Of a DNA stretch of 64,000 nucleotides, positions 13,120 to 18,758 are shown one piece after another (the first letter of the stretch is position 1; the number at the start of each line of letters is the position of its first letter). The position numbers were made by a program, and so were the translations under genes. The DNA comes from Alicyclobacillaceae bacterium I2511. GTDB taxonomy: Bacteria; Bacillota; Bacilli; Alicyclobacillales; Alicyclobacillaceae. The notes below the pieces were generated by a model that had not been told where the DNA came from, did no database searches, and saw only the letters and a list, made by a program, of their open reading frames with translations. Location: assembly GCA_003584005.1 (NCBI GenBank), contig QXHL01000007.1:1-64000 (forward strand). Reading direction: 5' to 3'.

Positions 13120-13968
13120 CTACGCCTGTGATATCGACATCTCAGCTGCACGAACGGTGTGGTCCAATAGGGTGGCAATTGTCACTGGGCCGACACCGCC
13201 TGGAACGGGTGTGATGGCGGAAGCCTGTTCTAAGCAAGCGGAAAAGTCCACATCTCCCACATTTCCTGGGTTGTATCCGGCATCAATCACGACCGCCCCA
13301 GGTTTAATCCAGGACCCTTGTACATAGCGAGGTTTGCCTACGGCAGCCACCAGAAGGTCTGCAGTAGCCACTAGTGAAGGGACATCGCGGCTGTGCGAGT
13401 GGCAGACTGTGACGGTTGCGTCTCGATTTAATAACATGGCAGCCATGGGTTTGCCGAGAATGGCACTTCTCCCCAGGACCACGGCGTGCAGGCCGGACAA
13501 CGATATATGGTAGTAATCCAGCAAGTGTAAAATGCCTTGTGGGGTGCAGGCGCCGTAACCGGGATGGCCCAAAGCCAGTAATCCAAAACCAGCTGACGAA
13601 ACTCCGTCCACGTCTTTTTGCGGCAGGATGGCATCAAACGCAGTACCTTCGTCTATGTGACGAGGCACTGGGTGTTGAAGTAAGATACCGTGAATACTTG
13701 GATCTTCGTTCAATTCTTGAATGATGGCCAAAAGCTGAATGGTGGTAGTGGATTCTGGCAAGTGAATGCGCTTTGAGGTCAGTCCATTGCGTTTGCAGGC
13801 ATTTCCTTTCATGCGGACATAGGTGGTTGAGGCTGGATCTTCGCCGACTAAAATGGTGGCCAACTGGGGGGTAATGTTTTGGTTTGCCAGTACCAAAGCG
13901 CGTTGGCGAACATTTTGCTCAATTGCGTCTACAACGGGTTTTCCAAGCAACATCAGGGGTTCTGTCAT
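13120..13968 (-). CDS. folD: Methylenetetrahydrofolate dehydrogenase / methenyltetrahydrofolate cyclohydrolase
   Basis: 282 residues from ATG 13968, preceded by AGGAGGACTCGCC; an upstream in-frame extension has no ribosome site. The bifunctional enzyme converts 5,10-methylene- to 10-formyl-tetrahydrofolate with NADP, feeding purine and formyl-Met synthesis. Family marks are YVRMKGNACKRNG with the catalytic Lys, GILLQHPVP, DVDG, the VLGRSAILGKPMA nucleotide loop and the near-C-terminal PGGVGPVT. It stands alone and convergent to the hydrolase cluster. The serine operon with a ZTP-type switch about 2 kb away concerns the same one-carbon pool. Confidence 0.97.
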   Translation of the reverse strand: MTEPLMLLGKPVVDAIEQNVRQRALVLANQNITPQLATILVGEDPASTTYVRMKGNACKRNGLTSKRIHLPESTTTIQLLAIIQELNEDPSIHGILLQHPVPRHIDEGTAFDAILPQKDVDGVSSAGFGLLALGHPGYGACTPQGILHLLDYYHISLSGLHAVVLGRSAILGKPMAAMLLNRDATVTVCHSHSRDVPSLVATADLLVAAVGKPRYVQGSWIKPGAVVIDAGYNPGNVGDVDFSACLEQASAITPVPGGVGPVTIATLLDHTVRAAEMSISQA

Positions 13969-14130
13969 GGCGAGTCCTCCTGGCATAAAAACGTCAAAAC
14001 CATTATCATTATACCGCAGTGTCATAGTTTGCATGAAACTAAACAATGTTCATAAAATTGATCCAAATTCGTCACTTGTTATGCAATGTCTTGAGAGTAA
14101 AATGTGTAACAAAAGCAAGGAGGGGTGGGT

Positions 14131-15475: not shown

Positions 15476-15660
15476 CCAAACTCACCCCACCCTCTATGTG
15501 CAGTTTACTTTACTGGACATTTCCTGCAAAAGTCTGCCTCACTTTTTTATTAATTCTATGGCAAAATCATGTATCTGTACAACCCTTTAATTTTTTGATA
15601 AAAAGAGAGGGGTTTCATTGTGAAATATGTTGAAAATTTGTGTACATTCGCAAAGATGTA

Positions 15661-15689
15661 TTGACAGAACTAGCCGCAATCTTTATGTT
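15661..15689 (+). promoter_or_regulatory. Sigma-A promoter of the serine operon
   Basis: TTGACA (15661-15666), a 17-base spacer and TATGTT (15684-15689) form a near-consensus promoter. Transcription would begin near 15696, about 35 bases before the riboswitch, leaving a leader of roughly 270 bases before serA. Confidence 0.75.
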
Positions 15690-15729
15690 ATTAAGCAGAC
15701 AACAGCATACTTAGTATTGAACCTGTGAA

Positions 15730-15800
15730 GGGTCGCACAACTGGCGGACAATGGGGAGTTCACCCCTGGGGAGTGCGATGGAAAGGCCGACCGCCTGGGC
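15730..15800 (+). ncRNA. ZTP/ZMP (pfl-type) riboswitch upstream of serA
   Basis: The leader contains the conserved pfl core: GGGTCGCAC at 15730, ACTGGCGG, a GGGG/CCCC hairpin (15753-15756 with 15763-15766), TGGGGAGTGCGA and the 3' domain CCGCCTGGGC (15791-15800). TCGCAC (15733-15738) pairs with GTGCGA (15773-15778), and GGCGG (15743-15747) can pair with CCGCC (15791-15795) as the family's pseudoknot. These RNAs sense the purine intermediate ZMP/ZTP, a signal of 10-formyl-folate shortage, and usually raise one-carbon or purine gene expression. Control of serA would raise serine as a one-carbon donor. Confidence 0.88.
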
Positions 15801-15839
15801 GCTCAGAGGATATTATGAGCGTTTGGGTGGTTATTTTTG
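15791..15839 (+). terminator. Intrinsic terminator forming the expression platform of the ZTP riboswitch
   Basis: Bases 15791-15805 pair with 15816-15830 over 15 positions with no mismatch, using several G-U pairs, and TTATTTTT follows. The 5' arm is the conserved 3' strand of the aptamer itself, so ligand-bound aptamer and terminator are mutually exclusive. The remaining leader to the serA start holds only a small GGGG-GGAA-CCCC hairpin (15901-15912). Confidence 0.8.
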
Positions 15840-15969
15840 TTGCTTCGAAACTTTTTTAAGGGATCAGACGTTCTGTACGGCGCCAGAAAATATGTGTGGT
15901 GGGGGGAACCCCCTGTCCGGCCGAGTGAATCAAAAGCCGGGTTGTCCACGCGAGGGAGGTTTGATTTTA

Positions 15970-17553
15970 TTGAAGATCTTAGTCGCAGATGACATTTCAT
16001 TGCTCGGATTGGAAAAGTTGCAGTCCATTCCAGACATGGAGGTAGTGGTTCGTACAGGCATGTCTGAAAGCGAAGTGATGCAGGCTATCAGCAATGCGGA
16101 TGCCCTACTTGTGCGGTCCCAAACGAAAGTGACAGAGCGTGTATTATCTGCTGCAAAGTCTTTGCAGGTAATTGGCCGCGCTGGGGTTGGAGTGGATAAC
16201 ATCGATGTGCTCAGCGCAACTCGACGCGGTGTAGTGGTCATCAATGCACCTGATGGCAATACCATTGCAGCAGCGGAACATACCCTAGCCATGATGTTAG
16301 GGATGTCGCGGTTAATTCCGCAGGCATTCCAGTCCATTCAGTCGGGCGCCTGGGACCGAAAGTCTTTTGTGGGTGTGGAGCTGTATGGGAAGACCTTGGC
16401 TGTTGTGGGGATGGGACATATTGGTGCAGAGGTTGCAAAACGGGCCAAGGCATTTGGCATGCGGGTAATTGGTTTTGACCCCTTTCTTTCGGAAGAGCGC
16501 GCCCGGTTGCTGGGAATTACGCGGGCGACATTGGACGAAGCTGTGAGTGAAGCAGACTTTATTACCGTTCACACGCCGCTCACCAAAGAGACTCATCATC
16601 TGTTGGGAAAAGCCCAGTTTGCCGCAATGAAAAAGGGTGTTCGCGTAATCAATTGTGCGCGCGGTGGCATAGTCGATGAGGTTGCACTGGCAGAGGGTCT
16701 GGAAAGTGGCCGGGTGGCTGGGGCGGCACTAGACGTTTACGAGACTGAACCGTTTGCACTGGACCATCCTTTGCGCCACTTTAAGAACGTGATTTTCACA
16801 CCACACCTGGGGGCATCCACTGTAGAAGCCCAAGTGAATGTGGCCATTTCCGTGGCGGAAGAAGTGGCGAATGTTTTGCAGGGGAAACCCTTTCAAAATG
16901 CAATAAACCTGCCCTCCCTTTCGGCAGAGCAAAAAGCATACTTGCAACCTTTTCTCACCTTGGGAGAGAGGCTGGGGTCCTTTCTTGGGCAGGCGGTTCC
17001 AGGTTCCCTGGAAGATTTGGAAATTACCTATGGAGGTGATTTGGCAGATCAGGATGTGAGTTTTATTGCGCGGACGGTACTGAAGGGACTACTGGGACAA
17101 CGCCATGGCGATGAAGTCAACTATGTAAATGCCCCATTTCTAGCCAAGGCTGCAGGTCTGGAAGTGCGGGAGGTGAAACAACCGAAGTCGAGAGTATACA
17201 CCAACTTGTTGACGGTGGGGGTTACCTCAGGTAAGACGAGGCACACGGTTTCAGGGACGCTGTATAACGGTTCTGGACCTCGCATCGTTGAGGTGGATGA
17301 CTATCTTATTGATGCCCAACCAGAAGGAGCCATGATTTTCACCCGCCATCAAGACCGTCCCGGCATGATTGGTCGAATTGGCATGATTTTGGGGGAGGCA
17401 GATATCAATATTGCGTCCATGCAAGTGGGCAGAAAAGAAACAGGGGGCGAAGCGGTCATGCTACTCACAGTAGACAAACCTGTACCAGAGTCGGCGATTG
17501 AAAAAGTCCAGACCCTCTCTGGAATTTTCGCGGTGCATAGGATTGAACTTTAG
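15970..17553 (+). CDS. serA: D-3-phosphoglycerate dehydrogenase
   Basis: 527 residues from TTG 15970, ten bases after GGGAGG; longer readings would translate through the riboswitch. SerA oxidises 3-phosphoglycerate to 3-phosphohydroxypyruvate, the first step of serine synthesis. Seen are the Rossmann motif VVGMGHIGAEVA, an Asp after the second strand (FDPF) indicating NAD, the NCARGGIVDE active-site segment, a middle substrate-regulatory domain, and a C-terminal ACT domain (FTRHQDRPGMIGRIGMIL) that binds serine in relatives. It leads an operon with serC and a HAD phosphatase, under ZTP-type control. Confidence 0.97.
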   Translation: MKILVADDISLLGLEKLQSIPDMEVVVRTGMSESEVMQAISNADALLVRSQTKVTERVLSAAKSLQVIGRAGVGVDNIDVLSATRRGVVVINAPDGNTIAAAEHTLAMMLGMSRLIPQAFQSIQSGAWDRKSFVGVELYGKTLAVVGMGHIGAEVAKRAKAFGMRVIGFDPFLSEERARLLGITRATLDEAVSEADFITVHTPLTKETHHLLGKAQFAAMKKGVRVINCARGGIVDEVALAEGLESGRVAGAALDVYETEPFALDHPLRHFKNVIFTPHLGASTVEAQVNVAISVAEEVANVLQGKPFQNAINLPSLSAEQKAYLQPFLTLGERLGSFLGQAVPGSLEDLEITYGGDLADQDVSFIARTVLKGLLGQRHGDEVNYVNAPFLAKAAGLEVREVKQPKSRVYTNLLTVGVTSGKTRHTVSGTLYNGSGPRIVEVDDYLIDAQPEGAMIFTRHQDRPGMIGRIGMILGEADINIASMQVGRKETGGEAVMLLTVDKPVPESAIEKVQTLSGIFAVHRIEL

Positions 17554-17648
17554 CAGCATGGTAAGGGGTCCCAAAATTTTTTCAGGATCTGTTGTGGGTG
17601 TACAGTCTGTCGATGTGCAGTAGATACAGTGAGTGGGAGGGTAAATCT

Positions 17649-18758
17649 ATGTACGAGGAAACGGAAGCAGTGCGGGCGGACAATTTTGGGGCTGGCCCAG
17701 CGGCATTGCCGGTGGCGGTGCTTCGACAGGTTCAAGAAGAATTTATAGCCTATCGGCAAACCGGGATGTCAGTGGTCGAATTGGGACATCGCACAGCAGA
17801 GTATTCCGAAATACAGAACCAGGCGAAACAGCGCTTACGGAGACTGCTTGGCATTTCAGAGGACTTTGAGGTGTTGTTTCTCCAGGGTGGAGCCAGTTTA
17901 CAGTTTGCCATGGTCCCATTGAATTTTCTTGACGATAATCAAACTGCGGCCTATGCATTGACTGGTTCTTGGGCGAAGAAGGCCTACCAGGAAGGGAAAC
18001 TGGTGGGACGGGTACGGGTTGCGTCCGATGGAGCAAATGAGGGATACAGGCACATTCCGAAGCTTGAGGAATTGCTGCTAGAGCCTGAGGATGCCTACTT
18101 GCATCTTACTTCAAACAACACGATTGTTGGCTCCCAGTGGGCCGATTTTCCAGTGGACACAGGGGTGCCTTTGGTGGCTGATATGTCCAGCGACATACTT
18201 TCTCGCCCGGTACCTGTCGAACGTTTTCAATTAATTTACGCCGGCGCTCAAAAAAATCTCGGCCCAGCAGGACTTACGATTGTAATTTTGCGCAAAAGTT
18301 GGCTGGAACAGGCGGTTGCAAAACGGGTGATTCCCAGCATGTTGCGGTATGATACGCATGTGAAGGGAGACTCTCGCTACAATACTCCACCTGTGTTTCC
18401 CATTTACGTGGCCGGACTGGTCCTGCAGTGGTTGGAGGAGCAGGGGGGGCTGGTGGCAATGGCTCGTCGCAATCAGGAAAAGGCAGCCGTGGTGTATCAG
18501 GCGATTGACGAGGGAGACAATTTCTACACAGGCGTGGTAGATGTGGACAGTCGGTCACCGATGAATATTACTTTTCGGCTGCCAACAGAAGAGCTAGAAA
18601 AACAATTTGTGCAGGAAGCAAAGGTAGCTGGAATGGTAGGATTAGGAGGGCATCGTTCTGTGGGTGGGTGCCGCGCTTCTCTGTACAATGCAGTGACATT
18701 GGAATCCTGTACTCGCTTGGCTGAGTTTATGGCTGACTTTCGCAAGATTCATGGGTAG
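17649..18758 (+). CDS. serC: Phosphoserine aminotransferase
   Basis: 369 residues from ATG 17649, eight bases after GGGAGGG. SerC transfers an amino group from glutamate to 3-phosphohydroxypyruvate using pyridoxal phosphate. NFGAGPAALP at the N-terminus, LFLQGGASLQFAM, and YAGAQKNLGPAGLT with the cofactor-binding Lys are the family signature, and HRSVGGCRASLYNA is the usual C-terminal substrate loop. It follows serA by about 95 bases with no terminator between, and is closely followed by the HAD phosphatase gene. Confidence 0.97.
   Translation: MYEETEAVRADNFGAGPAALPVAVLRQVQEEFIAYRQTGMSVVELGHRTAEYSEIQNQAKQRLRRLLGISEDFEVLFLQGGASLQFAMVPLNFLDDNQTAAYALTGSWAKKAYQEGKLVGRVRVASDGANEGYRHIPKLEELLLEPEDAYLHLTSNNTIVGSQWADFPVDTGVPLVADMSSDILSRPVPVERFQLIYAGAQKNLGPAGLTIVILRKSWLEQAVAKRVIPSMLRYDTHVKGDSRYNTPPVFPIYVAGLVLQWLEEQGGLVAMARRNQEKAAVVYQAIDEGDNFYTGVVDVDSRSPMNITFRLPTEELEKQFVQEAKVAGMVGLGGHRSVGGCRASLYNAVTLESCTRLAEFMADFRKIHG

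Follow-up and report, generated by a model that had tools for sequence, protein, structure and literature searches.

In the pfl riboswitch of Clostridium beijerinckii, the aptamer loses P3 and its pseudoknot to an invader strand, which thereby completes a terminator, a process that bound ligand blocks (PMC10085676). The same work considered wobble pairs within the pfl invader as kinetic barriers by which the response is tuned, G-U pairs slowing strand displacement (PMC10085676). Overlapping terminators and an ON direction of control were predicted when the motif was discovered (PMC2864571), and the literature already describes ZTP switches, paired in tandem with glycine switches, ahead of the gene for the first step of serine synthesis (PMC9481103).

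Here we analyze the leader of a serA gene in a 64,000-nucleotide stretch of DNA (hereafter the window, meaning the whole of that stretch). An RF01750 element lies on the same strand as, and upstream of, the one-carbon genes serA-serC (Table 1). We take the first of the two reading frames to encode SerA, a name given by recognition of its translated sequence, and the second presumably encodes a SerC-like protein, named in the same manner.

Table 1. Features of the serA leader and operon (window positions)
Feature	Position	Strand	Basis
Sigma-A-like promoter, TTGACA-17-TATGTT	15661..15689	+	10/12 matches; sits 5' of the aptamer
ZMP/ZTP riboswitch aptamer (RF01750)	15727..15807	+	54.6 bits, gathering cut-off 39, full model length
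Aptamer pseudoknot 5' strand, GGCGG	15743..15747	+	Partner CCGCC at 15791-15795; sequence and known ZTP aptamer architecture (PMC10085676)
Aptamer 3' strand, also terminator 5' arm, ACCGCCTGGGCGCTCA	15790..15805	+	Pairing and shuffles
Terminator 3' arm ("invader"), TGAGCGTTTGGGTGGT	15816..15831	+	Pairing; sister species G001 has TGAGCGTTCGGGCGGT, all pairs kept
U-rich tract, TATTTTTGTTG	15832..15842	+	Sequence
Conserved 3' leader element	15885..15972	+	Two hairpins and Shine-Dalgarno GAGGGAGG at 15952-15959; sister-species comparison
Loop GAAUCAAA	15927..15934	+	Complementary to UUUGAUUU at 15960-15967, adjoining the Shine-Dalgarno; possible pseudoknot
serA, presumed phosphoglycerate dehydrogenase, TTG start at 15970	15970..17553	+	ORF; aligned homologues begin at the same residue
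serC-like, presumed phosphoserine aminotransferase, next operon gene	17592..18758	+	ORF; also 3' of serA in relatives

Identification of the serA riboswitch

A covariance-model search of the whole window aligned model positions 1-86 of RF01750 in full at 15727-15807 (E 4e-6), with the serA start codon 162 bases 3' of the aptamer. The earlier note on this DNA had called the element a ZTP-type riboswitch, and this comparison with the Rfam ZMP-ZTP family gave a significant match (54.6 vs. 39 bits). In the RF01750 alignment, every base of the pseudoknot GGCGG/3' CCGCC and of the GCCGNCCGCCTGGGC motif is there. Upstream, a block that includes the promoter (15626-15700) is approximately 90% identical between the window and the sister species. 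The part of it upstream of the -35 box, 15626-15660 (TTTGTGNACATTNGCAAA), shows about the same conservation (~90%) in the sister species, with all DNA further upstream unrelated; it is possibly a regulator site.

The conserved aptamer segment CCGCCTGGGC doubles as the 5' arm of a terminator, and TATTTTTG comes after the terminator helix. The helix (15790-15805/15816-15831) has 16 uninterrupted pairs, including 5 G-U, and a loop of 10, and is followed by TATTTTTGTT; a 17th pair, also G-U, is possible. The 15 pairs with many G-U given by the earlier note thus come within one pair of this count. When the downstream DNA was shuffled 300 times with its dinucleotide content preserved, no shuffle gave the aptamer strand a helix of this length. 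In the sister species (G001, locus L105), the 3' arm carries two U-to-C changes, both opposite G, such that 16 of 16 pairs are retained. The terminator arm does overlap the pseudoknot/P3 strand, in the sister species as in the window. The exclusion of aptamer and terminator by one another, also proposed earlier, holds at the level of pairing, as both use the 15790-15805 strand. Predicted step-wise folds, from an energy model without the pseudoknot, are aptamer-like at first and change to the terminator when the 3' arm has been transcribed. A simple terminator scan did not list this terminator because the loop limit of the scanner is 8, whereas the loop here is 10.

Distribution among relatives

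We searched 59 genomes of the window's order with RF01750 and identified the downstream genes by tblastn, using proteins encoded in the window as queries. The placement of a ZTP switch at serA proved to hold family-wide: of the 41 genomes in the family to which Alicyclobacillus belongs, 40 carry a ZTP aptamer directly before serA, the exception being a genome that is 72% complete. In the neighboring family, the linkage was found in 0 of 18 genomes. An uninterrupted helix of 9-16 bp on the aptamer strand is present at 22 of the 41 serA loci, the others having mismatches, and a clear overlapping terminator at serA is absent in most members of genus g2. The output of the switch may accordingly differ from termination in some relatives of the window's genome. 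In the ZMP/ZTP class as a whole, a terminator that overlaps the 3' end of the aptamer is frequent but not general.

A folD homologue is also preceded by a ZTP aptamer in most genomes of the Alicyclobacillus family. The only other ZTP switch in the window's genome precedes such a homologue (contig C181), which fits a one-carbon regulon. The window itself holds a second FolD (13120-14046, - strand) that shares only 35% identity with the ZTP-controlled FolD of the same genome (C181), and in G034 and G040 a folD of the window's type (61-62% identity) is also preceded by a ZTP switch. At L001 and L003, the DNA between the ZTP terminator and folD contains a conserved GCCTCC block, for which the folD Shine-Dalgarno AAAGGAGG is a possible pairing partner. 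Separately, the window contains a TPP riboswitch (RF00059; 37968-38066, + strand, 63.4 bits).

Leader between the terminator and serA

The distance from the U-rich tract to the serA start agrees with the approximately 130 further leader bases reported earlier, and the small GC hairpin reported with them is GGGGG-GAA-CCCCC at 15901-15913. Within this leader, 15841-15880 can hardly be aligned between the window and the sister species, while 15885-15972 is ~80% identical. Third codon positions of serA are 48% identical between the two, and unconstrained sites are therefore close to saturated.

The conserved element may be a translational regulator or a constrained ribosome-binding region, and we lean to the latter. 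An ordinary conserved ribosome-binding region that holds serA translation at a fixed level receives slightly better than even weight in our judgment: the block contains the Shine-Dalgarno and the start, and it is without family-wide conservation. Searches beyond the sister species bear on the latter point. Covariance model R1, built from the 3' element, recovered only its two source genus members among the 59 genomes of the order and none in the other 57. A BLAST search of the order with the 3' leader returned chance matches only; it missed the sister species as well, probably for want of a long enough shared seed word. The exact pattern of the element was not found in viral contigs, and a plasmid search found nothing. 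Against a plain ribosome-binding region, conservation extends 80 bases 5' of the start, and the block includes a compensatory pair as well as a loop that hardly varies.

An alternative is tandem control, in which the ZTP terminator switch would be followed by translational control through 15885-15972, a loop-to-leader pseudoknot hiding or exposing the ribosome-binding site in response to a ligand or protein of its own. The ~80% identity of the block, against 48% at serA third codon positions, speaks for it. Hairpin 15916-15941 keeps all six aligned pairs despite one double-sided (compensatory) and two single-sided changes, and its conserved loop, GUGAAUYAAA, is complementary to the bases after the Shine-Dalgarno both in the window (8 of 8 pairs, one G-U) and in the sister species (7 of 8). 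A tandem of ZTP and glycine switches at a serine-synthesis gene has been published, moreover (PMC9481103). We nevertheless regard tandem control as unlikely. The comparison involves two sequences, from which covariation proves little; the folding energy of 15885-15972 does not stand out from that of shuffled sequences (z 0.10 and -1.42); and the optimal single-strand folds predicted for the two species disagree around the Shine-Dalgarno. An Rfam comparison of 15843-15972 produced nothing significant, its best hit (E 8.6) falling far short of its cut-off, the other 57 genomes of the order hold no copy, and the folD leader likewise has a conserved block, so such conservation may be common. The more specific proposal, that 15885-15972 is an undescribed genus-level RNA regulator gating serA translation via the loop pseudoknot beside the Shine-Dalgarno, seems to us quite unlikely. 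If true, it would make serA a two-input gate, with ZTP acting at transcription and another signal at translation.

Three other features of these leaders were considered and rejected. GTG at 15925 is not an in-frame serA start, since the sister species reads GTG AAT TAA. In the window, 15863-15869 (ATCAGAC) is predicted to pair with GTTTGAT at the Shine-Dalgarno, but the sister species has no partner. The serA leader of the sister species runs for 304 bases beyond the aptamer; this length does not represent extra regulation, as the insert is a dispersed repeat with at least 40 copies. This repeat, of ~68 bp and REP/BIME-like, occurs in tandem pairs and lies between terminator and serA at L105/L004; at least 40 copies are present in the sister genome and about seven in that of the window, and it is also found on G000 contigs C161, C204, C221, and C232.

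Discussion

By analogy with its class, from which ligand, direction, and kinetics are taken, the serA leader is very probably a transcriptional ON-type ZTP riboswitch. Without ZMP or ZTP, 15816-15831 would pair with aptamer strand 15790-15805 by strand displacement, which would dissolve the pseudoknot and P3, and RNA polymerase would stop at the U-tract. In a shortage of 10-formyl-THF, AICAR phosphates would accumulate and lock the aptamer; transcription would then continue into serA-serC, and more serine, the one-carbon donor, would be made. The aptamer match, the mutually exclusive pairing, and the family-wide linkage are shown by this analysis itself. That the element is degenerate and has lost switching is highly improbable: its score is below that of most relatives and in the lower range for the family (54.6 vs. 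up to 72.1 bits in the RF01750 search), but its pseudoknot strands and P3 motif are intact and the element is nearly unchanged in the sister species, against 48% identity at serA third codon positions.

In the Alicyclobacillus family, serine synthesis is as a rule under ZTP control (40 of 41 genomes), beside ZTP control of a folD homologue, and this supports serA as a core folate-alarmone target in this lineage. Neither the ZTP-serA linkage nor the mechanism is new, because both match published work (PMC10085676; PMC2864571; PMC9481103); the serA element is very probably an ordinary ZTP switch of the ON type, and it leaves the current understanding of such switches as it was. In all parts that could be checked, the earlier note was right; it mentions neither these precedents nor the conservation of the 3' part of the leader.

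Like the pfl switch of Clostridium beijerinckii (pfl motif, RF01750), the serA switch combines the aptamer, P3/pseudoknot strands reused as a terminator arm, and invader wobbles (PMC10085676; PMC2864571); unlike it, the window's switch controls serA-serC, has a 16-pair terminator with five G-U pairs, and is followed by a long leader 3' of the terminator. With the tandem ZTP/glycine riboswitches of Bacillus and Oceanobacillus it has in common that a ZTP ON switch precedes a gene of serine synthesis (PMC9481103), whereas the window leader has no glycine riboswitch and no other Rfam match. The serA linkage of the ZTP riboswitch is common to Alicyclobacillus and its relatives, while the 3' leader element sets the window's genus, in which alone it is found, apart from them.
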